Part shown: in pieces, positions 30,584 to 38,139 of the stretch
Layout: every line of letters starts with the position of its first letter
Position numbering within the stretch: position 1 is the first letter of the stretch
Virus record (IMG/VR): IMGVR_UViG_3300006917_000056
Coordinates: 1-39,998 of that record
Length of the DNA stretch: 39,998 nucleotides
Strand: one strand, 5' to 3'
From: a virus
The notes under the pieces: model-generated
Database searches by the model: none
What the model saw: the letters and a program-made list of their open reading frames with translations, nothing else
What the model was told of the DNA's origin: nothing
Made by a program: the position numbers and the translations under genes

Positions 30584-31252
30584 GTGATCGTGCTAAACGC
30601 CGAGGTTGAGGCGAATCGCCAATACCAGCGAGAATACGACGCTCGCCGCCGTGAGGAGAAAAAGCAGTATCTCCGTGAATGGAGGGCAAAGAGAGACGCA
30701 GACCCAGAAAGGAGGGCGGCTCACCTTGAGTATCACAGGAGGCGTCAGTTAAGGACGGCTTCTGATGAACGCGCCGCCGAATCTCTCCGAGAGGCAAACA
30801 GAAGGAGCTACCGAAAAAACAAAAAGCGAAGGATTTCCGCAACTGCGGAGTATAAGAGACGAAGGTCTAAGTCCGACGCCAAGTTCAATCTGCTGCTCAG
30901 GCTCCGCGCCCGTGCTTCCAAGATACTGAAGGCAGACGGACTGCCTGCGAGGTCTTGTGCAGGCCTTTTTGGGTGCAGTAGGGATCACCTGTTTAGTCAC
31001 ATAGAGTCCCAGTTCACAGACGGCATGAATTGGGAGAATCGTCGGCTTTGGCATATAGATCACATATACCCCGTCTCAAGAATCGACGTGACCAGTGAGC
31101 TAGATATTTCTGCTGCGTTTAACTGGAGAAACCTTCGCCCCATGTGGGCTGCGGATAATCTGCGAAAAAACGCCAAGGTGACGCCTGAGTCTGCTGACGC
31201 ATTCGAGTCGATTAAAAAAATTCTCTCTACCCCCGAGGAGACTGTTTCGTGA
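30584..31252 (+). CDS. free-standing HNH endonuclease
   Basis: 222 aa from GTG 30584 after GGAGGATGCAAA. Residues 10-100 are extremely basic coiled helices (DNA binding). The HNH core is at 147-197: GMNWENRRLWHIDHIYPVSR (HIDH 157-160), FNWRNLRPMWAADNLRKNAK. Its AA/AAA-rich coding (AAAAAACAAAAAGCG) is lower in GC than flanking genes, a sign of recent transfer. It sits between virion genes with its own promoter and overlaps the next ATG by 4 nt. It is probably a mobile homing endonuclease. Confidence 0.85.
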   Translation: MIVLNAEVEANRQYQREYDARRREEKKQYLREWRAKRDADPERRAAHLEYHRRRQLRTASDERAAESLREANRRSYRKNKKRRISATAEYKRRRSKSDAKFNLLLRLRARASKILKADGLPARSCAGLFGCSRDHLFSHIESQFTDGMNWENRRLWHIDHIYPVSRIDVTSELDISAAFNWRNLRPMWAADNLRKNAKVTPESADAFESIKKILSTPEETVS

Positions 31253-32685
31253 TTAAGAAGCTCAGTGTTGGGTTGTGGGTTCCAGCGTACGGAGGCAACG
31301 GAGGGATTTCTTCAGAGCATCCAGACGTTCGTGAGTGGATGATTCCACTCGCAGTCAAGGCGAGCCAAGACCCCCGCATTGATCGGCTGCATGTTTGGAC
31401 GAAGAGCGATACACCGGCCACCATGGTTCGCAATGAGGCTGTCCTGCAAGCGCGAGAGATGGGGCTCGATGTCCTCGTCATGATTGACAGTGACATGAAG
31501 CCGGACATGCACCTGTCAGAAGACCAGGCAGCGAAGCCGTTTTTTGATTCATCGTTCGACTACATCTACAAGAACTGGGACAAGGGGCCGATGGTGATTG
31601 GCGCCCCATACTGCGGCCCCCCTCCGCACGAGTGTGTGTATGTTTTCCGTTGGCAAAACAGAATGACAACCACGGCTGGCCCGGATTACCAGCTTGAGAT
31701 GTATGACCGACTTACGGCAAGCAAGATGTCCGGCATTCAGGAATGTGCGGCGTTGCCAACCGGATTGATCATGTACACCATGTCGGCGTTTGACATCATC
31801 GAGCCAGGGGACGCATCCAGCAAGCCGTTCTTTTACTACGAGTACCCCGACAAGTACCAGGCCAGAAAGGCCTCCACCGAGGACGTGACCAACACCCGTG
31901 ACATCTCTCTCGTTGGCATCCAGAAGCTGGGGTACAACCCGGTCATGTGCAACTGGGACGCCTGGGCTGGGCACTGGAAGCCGATCTGCGTCGGCAAGCC
32001 ACAGGTCATCGACGCCAAGGGTGTGAGCGACAAGTTCCGCGAGGCCGCCGTCTCCGGCCACGACTCCTCCACGAAGATCGTTGACATCAAGCCGAACCCG
32101 GTGCTTTCTCGCCTCATTGAGAAGGCAAAGGCTGAGGCCGCTCCTGAGTTCGACAACATGGGGCTCGTGACTCCTGATAGGGATCTTGAGGCCATTGGGA
32201 GGCTGGTCGAGTCTTTCAAGGCCAAGCATGGATTCCCTCCCAAGGTTCTTGAGGTAGGCTCTTGGGCTGGTGCCTCAGCCTTGGCGTTCTCTCGGGCCGG
32301 GGCAGAGTCGGTGACGTGCGTGGACACTTGGGAAGGCAGCAAGAACGACGAAGGCACCAGCAAGTACGACCGATCACGCGGCATGCCCATCGAGGTGTTC
32401 ATCAAGAACACGAAGCATGCTGGCAACATTGTGCCGTTTTGCAGCCGATCCCCAAAGGCTGCGGAGTTTTTCCAGGATGGCTTCTTCGACATCATCTACC
32501 TCGACGCCGAGCATGATGAAGAGTCGTTTGATGCCGACTTGGACGCCTGGCTGTCGAAGGCCTCGTACGTCATCGCAGGCCATGACTACGGGTTCTTCGA
32601 CGGAGTGACGAAGGTAGTGAATCGTCGGTTCAAGGACTTCCAGGTCGAAGGCACAGTCTGGTGGGCAAATGTCGGAAAAGAGTAA
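31249..32685 (+). CDS. glycosyltransferase-methyltransferase fusion
   Basis: 478 aa. The N-terminal half (1-260) is GT-A-like: LWVPAYGG start, TPATMVRNEAVLQAREMGLD, the metal-binding VLVMIDSDMKPD (DSD 80-82) and GAPYCGPPP. The C-terminal half (about 310-478) is a class I SAM methyltransferase of the Methyltransf_24 type: VLEVGSWAGASALAF (about 334-348), VTCVDTWEG, YLDAEHDEES (about 417) and VIAGHDYG (about 443). It could add and methylate a sugar on a virion protein or on host surface glycan. The two domains in one phage protein are uncommon. Confidence 0.75.
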   Translation: MIKKLSVGLWVPAYGGNGGISSEHPDVREWMIPLAVKASQDPRIDRLHVWTKSDTPATMVRNEAVLQAREMGLDVLVMIDSDMKPDMHLSEDQAAKPFFDSSFDYIYKNWDKGPMVIGAPYCGPPPHECVYVFRWQNRMTTTAGPDYQLEMYDRLTASKMSGIQECAALPTGLIMYTMSAFDIIEPGDASSKPFFYYEYPDKYQARKASTEDVTNTRDISLVGIQKLGYNPVMCNWDAWAGHWKPICVGKPQVIDAKGVSDKFREAAVSGHDSSTKIVDIKPNPVLSRLIEKAKAEAAPEFDNMGLVTPDRDLEAIGRLVESFKAKHGFPPKVLEVGSWAGASALAFSRAGAESVTCVDTWEGSKNDEGTSKYDRSRGMPIEVFIKNTKHAGNIVPFCSRSPKAAEFFQDGFFDIIYLDAEHDEESFDADLDAWLSKASYVIAGHDYGFFDGVTKVVNRRFKDFQVEGTVWWANVGKE

Positions 32686-33322
32686 GGCATGCTCTCTCTG
32701 TCGCAAGACGAAGCCTCTTGACGAGAAGCACTACCACGCCAACGTCAATGCCCCGGACGGATTCCGCTCGGAGTGTCGTGAGTGCCGAAAGCTCAGTCGT
32801 GCCGAAAGGCAGAGGAAGCGAAGGGAAGCAAAGCTAGAGGAAGTAGAGAAAGGTGCCGTAGACATCTTTGTCGGTGCCGCGCGAGTAGGGGGCGGGAACA
32901 TACCCCACTCCCGAGAACTGCTCGAAGTGATGATGGAGTACTTCGGCGGGGTTCGCGGGTACATGAACGTGTTCATGAAGAACCTGTACGACTCGCCAAG
33001 CGGGGGCTCCCACAGGACGAAGATGCTCCTCTCGGTTATGGGCCTGGTGACGGCCAACACATCAATGGGCGGTGCCGTGAAGCCGCTGGAGGCGATGACC
33101 GAGGAAGAGCTTGAGAGCGAGTACCGTCGCCGGATCATGCTCGAAGCTGCCCAGATGGCGAAGCAGATGAATGTGAACGGCGAGCCAGTGAAGATGATCA
33201 AGTCTGACGATCCGGATGCGATAGCCCTTCCGGATCCAGCAGAGTTCGAGGTTGTGAAGCGTGGCAAGAAAGAAGAAACATCCTCCGGTTCCGCCGCCGC
33301 AGATCCCGACTCCGACTCCTGA
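32669..33322 (+). CDS. probable terminase small subunit with N-terminal zinc ribbon
   Basis: 217 aa. Starts MSEKSKACSLCRKTKPLDEK, with CSLC and CREC pairs as a zinc ribbon of the kind seen in phage DNA-binding proteins. A basic linker (RAERQRKRREAKLEE) and a helical domain follow, with an acidic disordered end. It lies immediately upstream of and overlaps the large terminase by 62 nt, the standard place for the small subunit. The assignment is mainly by position. Confidence 0.5.
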   Translation: MSEKSKACSLCRKTKPLDEKHYHANVNAPDGFRSECRECRKLSRAERQRKRREAKLEEVEKGAVDIFVGAARVGGGNIPHSRELLEVMMEYFGGVRGYMNVFMKNLYDSPSGGSHRTKMLLSVMGLVTANTSMGGAVKPLEAMTEEELESEYRRRIMLEAAQMAKQMNVNGEPVKMIKSDDPDAIALPDPAEFEVVKRGKKEETSSGSAAADPDSDS

Positions 33323-35822
33323 ACTGGGCTTGTCCCAACACCAGCGAGGCGAGCTTCGTGATCTCCAGGCCGAGATCCTCCTGCGCCGCATGGAGGCTCT
33401 CAAGCTCTATGAGCCACAGCCAAAGCAGGACGAGTTCCATGCCTGCATGTCCAGCGAACGCCTGGCAATAGGCGGGAACCGTTGCCTTGGGGGCGACCAG
33501 GAAATCTATGACCCAGTCGCCAAGCGGTACGAAAAGGTCAAGGACATCAAGGCGAACTTCCACGTCCTGTCGTCAAAGAACGGGGAGGTCGTGGTTCGGC
33601 GGGCGTGCAGGCCGTTCGTGAAAGGGATTGGGGACATCTATCGCGTCCACCTCACGAGCGGATCGTCGTTTCTGTCTACGCTTGAGCATCGCGTTCACAC
33701 TTCGGAAGGCTGGGCTTCCGTTTTCGACGCCCACCGAGAAGGATCTTTTCTCTGCCCTCCGGTGTCCACTTCGGGCATTTCCCCTTCAGCGTTGCGGCGA
33801 GGTGCTTGCCGTTCGACTCAAAAAGCTCAAGGTTGTCTGGATGATTATTCCCGCGATCATCGTCAATGTGATGAACAACCTCTCCAGGGAGAAGGTATCG
33901 CCCTAACTTCTGCTCCATCACGAGTCGATGCTCCCGAACATACCCACGCACGTTCGCACGAGGATGCTCTGGTCGGAACCGAAGGATATAGCCCGACTTG
34001 TCTACCGTCACTCCTCCCCGCCACGCATGTGCCAGCGGCCCACTCCTCGGCCCCCTCTTTCTCATCTTCACGCCAGCCCGCTTGCACGCCTTGTTCGCTA
34101 CCTTCCCGGAAACTCCAAGCCTTTTCCCGACAGCCTCAACACTCAGCCCCTCATCCTCATACAGCCTCTTCAGAAGCTCAACATCCCACAGAACTGGATT
34201 GCGTTTCTTCGGCACTGCAAGAACCTCCATTGGTGGAAAAGCTACAGATTACCGCCCTTGAGCTAATCGGTCAACAGGAAATCTGGGACTTCACCGTAGA
34301 GGAGACTGAGTGCTACTTCGCTGGCGGTGTTCTCCATCACAACAGCGGCAAATCTGTGGTTGGTGGCGTTGAGGTTGCCCGCGCTGCCACCGGCCAAGAC
34401 CCGTATGAGAAGTACCCGAAAGAGAACCTCATCATCGCGGTGATTGGCAAGGACTGGAGGCACATCGGCCTGGTCTGCTACCCGATGTTGTTCAAGTGCG
34501 GTGCGATCAAGATGATCCGCGACGAGGTAACGAATGAATGGAGGGCATATCGCCCGAAGACGGACGCCCGCCGCTCAAGGGAGGCCAAGCCAGCCCAGCC
34601 TCTGATTCCGAATCGATTTGTAAAGCCCAAGGGCAAGTCCTGGCTCAATCGACGCCAGGGGTACATCCAGAAGGTTGAACTCATCAACGGCACGGTGATC
34701 CACTTCTTCTCATCGGAAGGCGATCCTCCGCAGGGCTTCCAAGCTGACCTTATTTGGATCGATGAAGACGTGAACGATGAGCGATGGGTGGGTGAAATGC
34801 AGGCCCGCCTCGCAGACCGCAAGGGGCGGTTCATCTGGTCTGCCATGCCGCACTCCGAGAACGACGCCCTCATTGGCCTGAAGGACCGGGCTATCGCCGC
34901 CGAGGAAAATGGCGACCCGAATCCGATCATTAAGATGTTCATCCTTCGCCACCTCGACAACCCGTACATCGACGACGAGGAGAAGAAAAAGAACATCGAG
35001 CGGTGGAGTGCCATCAGCCAAGACGAGTTGATGAAGCGAGCCGAGGGTGAGTTCATGACGGGCTCGACCCTCATGTACCCCACGTTCAATCGCTCTGTCC
35101 ATGTGATCCCGAGATCGACGTTCGAGAACGGAAACATCCCTGACGACTGGACCCGGTACTGCTCTACAGACCCAGGCTGGTCGGTGGCCACTACGTTGTT
35201 CTTTGCCGTCCCGCCCGACGAGAGCTACGTTCTGTTCTACGACGAGATCTACATCCGGAACTGCAATGCGGAGATCTGGGGCGAGGCGTTCCTGGGCAAG
35301 GCTCTCGGCAAGTCGATCTACGCTGGCATCTTCGACATGCACGGCGGTCGCCTGAGAGACATCGGCGGCGGCAGGCTGCCCCATGAGCTTTACTCTGAGC
35401 AGCTAAAGAAGGGTGGGTTCTCTTTCCGGTTTGGCGGCACGACCTTCATCCCTGGTTGCGATGACCCGAAGACGCGGGCCAACATGGTTCGCGAGAAGCT
35501 GCACATCCGGCCGGACGGCACGACCAAGCTGAAGGTGCTTGAGGGATCTTGCCCGAATCTCCTCGAAGAACTCAAGCGTTACCGCAAGAAAACCACTCGC
35601 GTAAACGGCATGGTCTATGTGACAGACGAGCCCCAGACGAGGGGTGATGTCCACGCCTGCCAGGCTCTCGAATACGCCATCGCCTACGAACCGAAGTATC
35701 ACCAGCCTCCACGGACTTCAGGCCCGAAGCCGTGGTGGAAGTCATGGATGGAGAAGCGTGAAGCCCGGAATCGGGAGCTTCAAGATCCGTGCATTTTGCT
35801 TGGGCCTGCCAGGAGGAAGTGA
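33261..35822 (+). CDS. terminase large subunit precursor interrupted by an intein
   Basis: 853-aa precursor; 566 aa after intein removal. GTG start at 33261. The ATPase Walker A is split: GGNR (71-74) | intein 75-361 | SGKS (362-365). The Walker B region is ADLIWIDEDV. The nuclease domain has CSTDPGWS, a central FDMHGG and a late TRGDVHACQALEYA, each giving an acidic metal ligand. It powers DNA packaging through the portal and cuts the concatemer. Without splicing the P-loop is destroyed, so packaging depends on the intein. The stop overlaps the next ATG. Confidence 0.92.
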   Translation: MARKKKHPPVPPPQIPTPTPELGLSQHQRGELRDLQAEILLRRMEALKLYEPQPKQDEFHACMSSERLAIGGNRCLGGDQEIYDPVAKRYEKVKDIKANFHVLSSKNGEVVVRRACRPFVKGIGDIYRVHLTSGSSFLSTLEHRVHTSEGWASVFDAHREGSFLCPPVSTSGISPSALRRGACRSTQKAQGCLDDYSRDHRQCDEQPLQGEGIALTSAPSRVDAPEHTHARSHEDALVGTEGYSPTCLPSLLPATHVPAAHSSAPSFSSSRQPACTPCSLPSRKLQAFSRQPQHSAPHPHTASSEAQHPTELDCVSSALQEPPLVEKLQITALELIGQQEIWDFTVEETECYFAGGVLHHNSGKSVVGGVEVARAATGQDPYEKYPKENLIIAVIGKDWRHIGLVCYPMLFKCGAIKMIRDEVTNEWRAYRPKTDARRSREAKPAQPLIPNRFVKPKGKSWLNRRQGYIQKVELINGTVIHFFSSEGDPPQGFQADLIWIDEDVNDERWVGEMQARLADRKGRFIWSAMPHSENDALIGLKDRAIAAEENGDPNPIIKMFILRHLDNPYIDDEEKKKNIERWSAISQDELMKRAEGEFMTGSTLMYPTFNRSVHVIPRSTFENGNIPDDWTRYCSTDPGWSVATTLFFAVPPDESYVLFYDEIYIRNCNAEIWGEAFLGKALGKSIYAGIFDMHGGRLRDIGGGRLPHELYSEQLKKGGFSFRFGGTTFIPGCDDPKTRANMVREKLHIRPDGTTKLKVLEGSCPNLLEELKRYRKKTTRVNGMVYVTDEPQTRGDVHACQALEYAIAYEPKYHQPPRTSGPKPWWKSWMEKREARNRELQDPCILLGPARRK
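33483..34343 (+). other. intein in terminase Walker A
   Basis: 287 residues. Block A: CLGGDQEIYDP with Cys1. Block B: TLEHRVHTSEGW with T..H (Thr140, His143 of the precursor). Blocks F/G: IWDFTVEETECYFAGGVLHH then N, with the +1 residue Ser362. The first ~78 and last ~35 residues form a normal splicing domain. The ~170 residues between are Ser/Pro/His/Gln-rich and match no endonuclease. That stretch is antisense to an HNH gene. It probably splices autocatalytically to rebuild GGNRSGKS. Confidence 0.93.
33676..34215 (-). CDS. antisense HNH homing endonuclease nested in the intein
   Basis: 179 aa, entirely within the intein on the opposite strand. GTG 34215 lies 8 nt after GGAGG. ATG 34230 is an in-frame alternative without a site. 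Residues about 10-50 form a helix-turn-helix (DVELLKRLYEDEGLSVEAVG...). Residues 59-140 are a typical phage HNH_3 domain: LAHAWRGGVTVDKSGYILRF, REHRLVMEQKLGRYLLPGE, VVHHIDDD (His115-116), NHPDNLELF (Asn128), GKH (His138). The tail is basic. The stop codon falls on the codon of block B Thr140. Its promoter is not evident. Confidence 0.9.
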   Translation of the reverse strand: MPKKRNPVLWDVELLKRLYEDEGLSVEAVGKRLGVSGKVANKACKRAGVKMRKRGPRSGPLAHAWRGGVTVDKSGYILRFRPEHPRANVRGYVREHRLVMEQKLGRYLLPGEVVHHIDDDRGNNHPDNLELFESNGKHLAATLKGKCPKWTPEGREKILLGGRRKRKPSLPKCERDAQA

Positions 35823-36136
35823 TGAGTTTCAAGAGTCCCGAAGTTCAGTTGGCCGAGACGGTCTTGTTCATGCCCCACGAGGGTGCCGAGGCCGTTCCTG
35901 CCGTTGTGTGCAAGATCGGATCCCGCACCCTCGACCTGTACGCCATGGGGTCGCACGGCCCGGTGTACAAGCCTGGCGTCCACCACCAGAAAGACCCCGA
36001 CCTGGAGAACTTCCCTGAGTGGCGGAAATCCGGCATTTGGGAGAAGGCTCCACAAGACCCCAAGTACGCCATTCTCGCGGAGAAAGTGGCCCTCTTAGAG
36101 AAGAAGGTCGAGTCCCTGGGTGGGAAAAAGGGCTAA
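35822..36136 (+). CDS. hypothetical protein (104 aa)
   Basis: Strand-rich (VQLAETVLFMPHEGAEAVPA, a DLYAMGSHGPVYKPGVHH turn), then a C-terminal coiled coil (LAEKVALLEKKVESLGGKK). AGGAGGAAGTG precedes the ATG. It lies between terminase and portal. It could be a head-closure or connector accessory, but no family is recognised. Confidence 0.6.
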   Translation: MSFKSPEVQLAETVLFMPHEGAEAVPAVVCKIGSRTLDLYAMGSHGPVYKPGVHHQKDPDLENFPEWRKSGIWEKAPQDPKYAILAEKVALLEKKVESLGGKKG

Positions 36137-36153
36137 AGGGACAATAGTTTTTC

Positions 36154-38139
36154 ATGGAACGAGACTTTCCCCTCAAGCCGATTTGTGCCCGCTGGCTCGA
36201 CTGCATCAAGAAGGCAGAAGAGTACAAGAAGGCCTTCACTCAAGACGCTGCCGAAGCGATGATGTTCTTCAGCAGTGACAGTGACGCGGTGTGGGGGGAG
36301 ATTGCCAAGAACAAGTTTGCGAAGGGTGTCGGCCTGCCGACGTTCCGCATGGTGGTCAACCGCCTGTGGGAAGCCGTTCGCATCTTTGCCGCCGTGATTC
36401 ACCACAGAAACCCCAACAGGGTAGCTACGCCCAAGCAGCTTCCCTCGATTCTCCCGCAGCAGTTGGGGATTGTTGACCAGCCGGTTCCTCAAATGGGGCC
36501 GGATGGTCAACCTGTGGTGGGTCCGGACGGCCAGATGGTCATGATGCCATCTCCTGAGATGATGGAGTACCACCAGATGGCCGGGCATCAGCAGATGCTC
36601 ATGGATCATCGCACTCTGGTTTCCTCGCTCTTGGAGATGTACCTGAACTACACCCCGAACGAACTGAATCTCCAGTACCAGTCCAGGCAGGTGGTGGAGG
36701 AGGCGTTCATCAAGGGGGCTGGTGTGTGGTGGCATGAGCTTTACGCCCCGCCAGGAAGCTCTACCAGGATGGTCGGCAGCTTCTTCGATACCATCGACAA
36801 TCTTGTCTGGGATCCTGATGCAGACAAGTTTGACGACATCCGCTGGGCAGCCCGTAAGCGTATCCGTCCGATTGACGACGTGGCCTCTGAGTTTGGGCTC
36901 GACCGAGAGTGGCTCAAAGGCCATGCGGAAAGCTATTCTTCCCAGGCCGACTCAAAGCGTCCAGATTACAAGTACCGGAAATCCCGAGGGCAGACGAACG
37001 ATCTCCTTGAATACTGGGAGATCTATTCCAAGACGGGCTTCGGGGACCGGCTCAAAGACGTGGATGAGCGCTTCCGTGGCGCGTTCGATTCCCTCGGTCA
37101 GAACTGCTATATCGTCGTCGCTAAGGGAATTGATTTTCCGCTGAACATCCATCCCGATCTTCTCAAGCAAGAGGTTGGTGAGGGTCAGGTTCCAGACGAT
37201 CTCTTCATGGCGGCTCAATGGCCAGTGCCATTCTGGGTGGAGCCGAACGGCTGGCCGTTCACGCCGCTCATGTGGCATGGCAAGCCAAACTATACCTGGC
37301 CGCTGACTGTCGTGTCGGCTGGCATGGGCGAATTGCGGTTCATCAACTGGGCCATGTCCTACCTGATGGGGCGAATCCAGAAGACGGCAGACACGATCAT
37401 CGGAGTGGCGAAGGGTGCCGAGGAGTCCCTGAAGGCCCAGATCACCGCCCCGTCCGAGGGTGGCCTCAAGGTCGTGGAAATCAGCCAGGCACTGAATATG
37501 CCGCTGAACCAGTTGATCCAGGTCTTCGAGCAGCCGCAGGTTTCCCAGGAGATGTTCCGGATCATTGCCGAAGTGACGGCTATGTTCGACCGCCGGGTTG
37601 GGCTGACCGAGCTTATCTACGGCATGACCTCGGCATCGATGCGGAGTGCTACCGAGAGCCAGGTCAAGATGGATCAAGTGTCCATCCGGCCGGACGACTA
37701 CGCCAACATCCTCGAAACCGCCATGTCGGAGTGTGCCCGCAAGGAAGCCCTCATGGCTCGGTGGGCTCTGGAGCCGCAGGACGTTGAGCCGATCCTCGGG
37801 CCGCTTGGGGCTCGGGCCTGGGCCATGCATGTCAAGAGTGCCGACGTGGAGTCGGTGGCTCGGGAATACAGCTACCGGGTCGAGGCCGGGTCCACCAGGA
37901 AGCCTAATTCCGCGACCCGCCTGGAAACGATCAACAACGCCATGCAGATCCTCATGCCGGTGGCTCAAGGGCTCATGCAGGCAGGGCAGCCTCAGTTGTT
38001 CAACGCCCTCATGGCCGACTGGGGCAAGGCCATGGAGATCGATGTCTCCAAATACGTCATCCCCCCACCTCCGCCCCCGCCCCCGGAACAGGCTGGGCCG
38101 CCGCCCGCAGAGCCACCTCCACCCCCGGAAGGACAATAG
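36154..38139 (+). CDS. portal protein
   Basis: 661 aa, the usual size for a portal, directly after the terminase. The N-terminal half has helices and a Gly/Met/Pro insertion (PQMGPDGQPVVGPDGQMVMM). The middle (about 385-480) has GELRFINWAMSYLMGRIQKT, AEVTAMFDRRVGLTELIYGM, SASMRSATESQVKMDQVSIR, a layout typical of the portal stem and crown. It ends in a poly-Pro tail. It forms the dodecameric DNA gate of the head. There is no RBS stronger than AAAGGGACAATAG. Confidence 0.8.
   Translation: MERDFPLKPICARWLDCIKKAEEYKKAFTQDAAEAMMFFSSDSDAVWGEIAKNKFAKGVGLPTFRMVVNRLWEAVRIFAAVIHHRNPNRVATPKQLPSILPQQLGIVDQPVPQMGPDGQPVVGPDGQMVMMPSPEMMEYHQMAGHQQMLMDHRTLVSSLLEMYLNYTPNELNLQYQSRQVVEEAFIKGAGVWWHELYAPPGSSTRMVGSFFDTIDNLVWDPDADKFDDIRWAARKRIRPIDDVASEFGLDREWLKGHAESYSSQADSKRPDYKYRKSRGQTNDLLEYWEIYSKTGFGDRLKDVDERFRGAFDSLGQNCYIVVAKGIDFPLNIHPDLLKQEVGEGQVPDDLFMAAQWPVPFWVEPNGWPFTPLMWHGKPNYTWPLTVVSAGMGELRFINWAMSYLMGRIQKTADTIIGVAKGAEESLKAQITAPSEGGLKVVEISQALNMPLNQLIQVFEQPQVSQEMFRIIAEVTAMFDRRVGLTELIYGMTSASMRSATESQVKMDQVSIRPDDYANILETAMSECARKEALMARWALEPQDVEPILGPLGARAWAMHVKSADVESVAREYSYRVEAGSTRKPNSATRLETINNAMQILMPVAQGLMQAGQPQLFNALMADWGKAMEIDVSKYVIPPPPPPPPEQAGPPPAEPPPPPEGQ

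Follow-up and report, generated by a model that had tools for sequence, protein, structure and literature searches.

A terminase intein with a probable homing endonuclease gene on the opposite strand

Can a mobile intein have its two functions, protein splicing and DNA homing, encoded on the two strands of one stretch of DNA? Inteins are taught as single polypeptides that carry out both. The question is raised by a terminase locus on the plus strand of an IMG/VR virus record of 39,998 bases (IMGVR_UViG_3300006917_000056; the whole stretch analyzed is called the window below). Judging from sequence, we consider it likely (probability roughly 0.85) that this locus holds a mobile intein with its homing endonuclease encoded on the opposite strand, at the position usually occupied by an in-frame endonuclease domain.

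The terminase intein and the antisense HNH gene

The large terminase (TerL) open reading frame (ORF) occupies positions 33261-35822 (+), encodes 853 amino acids and is open throughout in the window's ORF list. The features of the locus, in window positions, are as follows.

33261-33482, +: N-extein of the large terminase, ending in GGNR, the first half of Walker A (from the ORF and the terminase relatives L001-L015)
33483-34343, +: intein of 287 aa (TerL residues 75-361), from Cys1 to HHN, followed by Ser+1 (from motifs, fold model and profile)
33483-33758, +: N-terminal part of the Hint splicing domain, blocks A and B, intein residues 1-92 (AlphaFold, pLDDT 95-98)
33759-34229, +: intein linker, residues 93-249, predicted to be disordered (pLDDT ~50), stop-free and antisense to the HNH gene (AlphaFold; recoding test)
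34230-34343, +: C-terminal part of the Hint domain, blocks F and G, intein residues 250-287 (AlphaFold; profile)
34344-35822, +: C-extein of the large terminase, beginning with SGKS (Terminase_6N)
33676-34230, -: antisense HNH homing endonuclease gene (putative), 184 aa from ATG at 34230 or 179 aa from an alternative GTG at 34215
33820-33930, -: HNH_3 core, residues 101-137 (profile and conserved residues)
34224-34228, -: Shine-Dalgarno-like GGAGG preceding the GTG at 34215

Is the inserted segment an intein? It splits Walker A between GGNR and SGKS, shares one reading frame with both exteins and is precisely absent from relatives. Its splicing residues are Cys1, the block-B His69, the C-terminal HHN and Ser+1; C1, H69, D269 and N287 are invariant across the family, position 1 is Cys in 74 of 76 family inteins (the two exceptions come from contigs truncated there) and the +1 residue is Ser, Thr or Cys in every one examined. 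The single window protein matches the Pfam model Intein_splicing weakly and below the cutoff (E 1.6e-3), and the family intein profile hits DnaB and RecA inteins of solved structure, the Npu DnaB intein best (E 9e-23). AlphaFold predicts a Hint fold, with a pLDDT of 95-98 at residues 1-92 and about 250-287 and ~50 between; the low-confidence stretch is the segment opposite the HNH gene. The model matches the RecA, DnaB and DnaE inteins at E values of about 1e-6. By all criteria of sequence and predicted fold that we applied, the element is an intein, and the earlier note's description of a terminase P-loop split by an intein with its splicing blocks holds. A group I intron was also considered and rejected, as no Rfam match was found at E values up to 1 in window positions 32600-36200.

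The antisense ORF matches HNH_3 (PF13392) at an E value of 1e-10, with 41.5 bits against a cutoff of 24.8, and its best match among phage HNH families is phrog_10730 (4e-27). The protein is laid out as an N-terminal helix-turn-helix, an HNH core and C-terminal helices; the invariant HNH residues are His101, His121, Asn129, Asn133 and His143, the last just beyond the HNH_3 core. The structural model, which has a pLDDT of 88 and includes the helix-turn-helix, finds its best match in the PDB in the homing endonuclease I-HmuI, a weak one (TMq 0.34, E 0.18). These results bear out the earlier claim of a complete antisense HNH gene with a GGAGG-GTG start. That claim had also placed the gene antisense to the region where an endonuclease domain normally sits, which stands for the linker and needs refinement at the gene's 3' end: this additionally overlaps folded Hint codons (33676-33758), so the gene is not confined to the linker. 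A promoter and terminator scan of the window gave background-level matches, with no antisense promoter signal upstream of the HNH gene.

Several neighboring genes are also of interest. A second, free-standing HNH-like protein (DHIYPVSRID...NLRPMWAADNLRKNAK) is encoded a few kilobases upstream of the terminase, at 30584-31252 (+), and has no match in Pfam or NCBIfam. The gene at 32669-33322 (+) probably encodes the small terminase subunit, with an N-terminal four-cysteine zinc finger that resembles phage endonuclease VII and HNH families (phrog_1035). In intein-free terminase relatives, the interval from terminase to portal holds a free-standing HNH gene (L003, 6016-6687 (+), and likewise L004 and L007-L010), possibly a homing gene that competes or collaborates; the window has none at that place.

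Recurrence, phase and selection

Does the arrangement recur? We searched IMG/VR with the HNH protein and obtained 80 loci (scan 1). With the window and one further locus (L016) included, 74 loci had a single stop-free ORF opposite the HNH gene, and intein N- and C-blocks flanked the HNH gene in 73 of them. A second scan used the splicing N-block alone as query, removing the bias of an HNH search. It recovered 80 inteins: 71 with an antisense HNH gene, 8 mini-inteins without one and 1 cut by the contig end; none had an HNH gene on the same strand. Altogether, there were 163 intein ORFs, 155 of them with an antisense HNH gene (116 distinct), most of the 155 coming from the two viral-contig scans. 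The earlier note had allowed that HNH homologues might never be found so arranged; 155 intein ORFs instead have the arrangement. Host gene and intein form a single ORF in every complete case.

An invertible segment might produce such loci, if the HNH part flipped by way of inverted repeats and at times lay in frame with the intein, and the size and usual position of an endonuclease domain would suit this. However, flanking inverted repeats of useful length are absent, the 80 unbiased loci include no sense-strand HNH in the clade and the sole conventional in-frame HNH intein that we met (L088) is distant. We consider inversion very improbable.

The relative phase of the two frames is identical in all 116 distinct antisense-HNH loci, with the HNH wobble base falling on the second base of the intein codon. 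Across these loci the intein frame has no stop in 35,116 intein codons, and at least 80% of the HNH profile is kept in one open frame in 113 of the 116.

Could one of the two frames be open by accident? GC-rich DNA often contains antisense ORFs, and the window itself has several. As a null model, we recoded the HNH genes synonymously and counted stops in the intein frame. In a diverse set of 62 loci, thinned to <70% identity and comprising 9,325 codons, there were 0 stops against 313 expected; the corresponding values were 0 against 325 for 73 loci and 0 against 4.7 for the window alone. The other two antisense frames served as a control and contained 280 and 431 stops, close to the expected numbers; a set of 13 free-standing HNH genes had 52 stops against 67 expected. 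The synonymous recoding test rules out a chance overlap, an idea that the phase shared by 116 of 116 loci and the stops filling the two remaining frames also leave with next to no credibility.

The HNH frame has its own signature. Among 21 independent pairs, differences at HNH codon positions 1, 2 and 3 numbered 141, 135 and 492, a pileup at third positions which shows that the HNH protein is selected while the amino acids of the intein linker drift. Because the third-position bias persists in close pairs (3-10% divergence), this selection is recent. A Shine-Dalgarno sequence of at least 4 nt precedes 56 of 114 HNH starts, compared with 25 of 154 in control frames; roughly half of the HNH starts have no detectable one. 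Both strands are kept readable by selection, through stop avoidance in the intein frame and purifying selection in the HNH frame. The earlier note would have been contradicted by an antisense frame under no selection; that frame instead shows protein-level purifying selection.

Endonuclease loss, empty sites and spread

If homing and splicing are separate genes, is the endonuclease ever lost? One locus (L063) has a stop within the HNH gene, another (L142) retains a 26-codon HNH remnant, antisense and in the common phase, and the eight mini-inteins of the splicing-domain scan are complete. Endonuclease loss is caught in these sequences at several stages: HNH stop, remnant and mini-intein. None of the loci showed the reverse, an intact HNH gene opposite an interrupted intein frame, as would be predicted for an essential host gene.

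These losses would fit an antisense HNH gene that formerly powered homing and is now a decaying passenger, with current copies inactive and the inteins spreading or persisting by ordinary recombination and vertical descent; the lack of a promoter signal in the window points the same way. A decaying gene is hard to reconcile, however, with the 113 distinct loci that keep most of the HNH profile open and with the recent selection seen in the close pairs, and we think the idea unlikely.

Are there empty sites and traces of movement? In one TerL family (83-100% amino acid identity; L233-L312), 17 loci have an intein and 63 are empty at the identical site, a Walker A codon boundary occupied by several intein types, including two 408-nt mini-inteins. 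Comparisons of intein alleles with empty ones show a dip in identity over the first 60 nt downstream, which is missing when empty alleles are compared with each other (per-locus p 1e-5). TCN is the Ser+1 codon of 16 of 17 intein alleles and of 11 of 63 empty ones; the other 52 empty alleles have AGY. In the window's own TerL family, an intein-bearing locus (L022) and an empty one (L006) share 96-98% identity 120-180 nt upstream, ~57% at the site and again 95-98% at 660-720 nt downstream. Such tracts of flank divergence are those expected from repair-copying at a nearby cut, a reading that these alignments support, and ordinary recombination carrying the intein would also be compatible. At +1, Ala or Gly is found in most of the intein-free alleles within the window's terminase family (L001-L015). 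Since splicing needs Ser there, invasion must alter the +1 residue together with the flank, or these alleles resist. The search that the earlier note had proposed, for inteins with and without the antisense gene, thus returned mini-inteins lacking the HNH gene, one HNH remnant and many empty alleles.

The HNH protein might instead act elsewhere, in marker exclusion against competing phages or in regulation of the host gene, with the intein as a safe location. Free-standing HNH relatives near the terminases of intein-free phages would suit such a role, as would the N-terminal helix-turn-helix, which could bind DNA without cutting. Against this, the splicing domain and the HNH protein diverge together, and the flank divergence is centered on the intein site, as homing there predicts. 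We rate action elsewhere as unlikely, though marginally less so than decay.

Under homing by an opposite-strand gene, the reading that we prefer, the sense strand would yield one TerL-intein-TerL polypeptide, to be spliced by the Hint halves, in which the stretch opposite the HNH gene would be no more than a long disordered loop. The minus strand would be transcribed as an HNH gene in its own right. The encoded protein would cut Walker A sites that lack the intein, and repair from an intein-bearing allele would copy the whole element with some flanking DNA.

Do the elements share one origin? Grouping of the antisense HNHs as one clade is compatible with the data (p-AU 0.89, the constrained tree also having the higher likelihood) in a tree that leaves out 20 short or long-branched rows. 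HNH distances track splicing-domain distances (Mantel r 0.735); nearest neighbors by the two distances agree in only 24 of 78 cases, so exchange of HNH genes between inteins is possible. The host genes include several terminase families, an SbcC-like protein (L016), SF2/SNF2 helicases (L039, L184) and a clamp loader (L074), and four bacterial MAG contigs carry an antisense-HNH intein (L184-L187).

Nine cultured phages have the element: seven Pectobacterium phages, Dickeya phage Setonix and Pseudoalteromonas phage PHS3. The Pectobacterium intein, as query against a phages collection, matched nine isolates and, weakly, one uncultured phage record; no actinobacteriophage was matched by this query, and the N-part of the window's own intein had no match in the collection. 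Actinobacteriophage HNH matches in GAL1, FlyingTortilla and Thibault were set aside as same-strand genes with no intein seen. In the annotation of the seven Pectobacterium phages, TerL is a hypothetical protein and the HNH gene is absent. Because the intein was not recognized, that of PHS3 (L100, 1041-3167) has a shortened terminase and lists the HNH gene as intergenic.

The earlier note had proposed a separate antisense homing gene, uncoupled from splicing, and perhaps a new type of composite element. This reading is supported, and what had been taken for a single oddity becomes a clade in several host genes. With less confidence than we place in the locus itself, we think it probable that these loci form a widespread class of composite mobile elements, in which splicing and homing lie on opposite strands as two overlapping genes of stable phase, with a single origin, spread to the Walker A sites of terminases, the SbcC-like protein, helicases and the clamp loader, and separate control of homing and splicing.

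Meaning and comparison with known systems

What follows if each strand carries one of the two functions as its own gene? Homing could be turned on regardless of whether the host protein is being made, and an in-frame deletion would be enough to remove the endonuclease. The overlap is among the cleaner natural examples of two genes sharing a long antisense stretch in which constraint is demonstrated for either frame, and it recurs in 62 diverse loci. The element also explains some phage terminases annotated as hypothetical proteins or fragments, and its presence in cultured phages (Pectobacterium phages Sabo, Ymer and others; Pseudoalteromonas phage PHS3) makes the system testable.

Canonical large inteins, such as Mtu RecA and Synechocystis DnaB, have their endonuclease domain in frame, and HNH-bearing examples exist. 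The element shares with them the Hint blocks A, B, F and G, the place of the endonuclease segment, insertion at conserved active-site motifs and empty alleles. It falls outside this canonical class since its endonuclease is out of frame: a separate gene on the opposite strand, with a disordered linker as the in-frame segment. Two loci met along the way touch on this comparison. L088 (4308-6563 (+)) has a conventional in-frame HNH intein in a host protein resembling a B12-binding radical SAM enzyme; it adjoins a free-standing HNH gene of the same family and offers a natural in-frame contrast case. In L027 (1163-3679 (-)), a terminase with an antisense-HNH intein seems to contain another intein as well, whose LAGLIDADG-like domain is in frame.

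Fractured genes, reportedly the subject of work by Dassa et al. in 2009, are said to contain split inteins whose halves are separated by a free-standing homing endonuclease gene. As in those genes, the endonuclease has its own gene, tied to an intein in phage-like genes; here, however, host gene and intein form one uninterrupted ORF that the endonuclease gene overlaps in antisense. We rejected a split intein for the window on the same ground, every complete case being a single ORF.

We found no published description of antisense endonuclease genes in inteins in the open-access literature, outside the scope of which lies a preprint on non-canonical actinobacteriophage inteins (10.1101/2025.01.02.630785). 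Two relatives in concept have been described. The ShiLan domain is a hidden out-of-frame HNH in phage methylases (PMC11855218), and here too the HNH gene overlaps a host ORF that remains open. It differs in lying on the same strand without a splicing domain, so that the host protein would retain the loop; an insertion of this type was rejected for the window, where the HNH gene is on the opposite strand and a Hint domain is present. The other relative is the set of antisense homing genes within nuclear group I introns, one of which, I-DsqI, is expressed and cuts the empty site (PMC9548176). Both systems have an antisense homing gene within a splicing element, and the expression and activity of I-DsqI make an antisense homing mechanism plausible by analogy. 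In the I-DsqI system, the splicing element is a self-splicing RNA in rDNA and its sense strand need not be translatable, whereas that of the phage intein must be.
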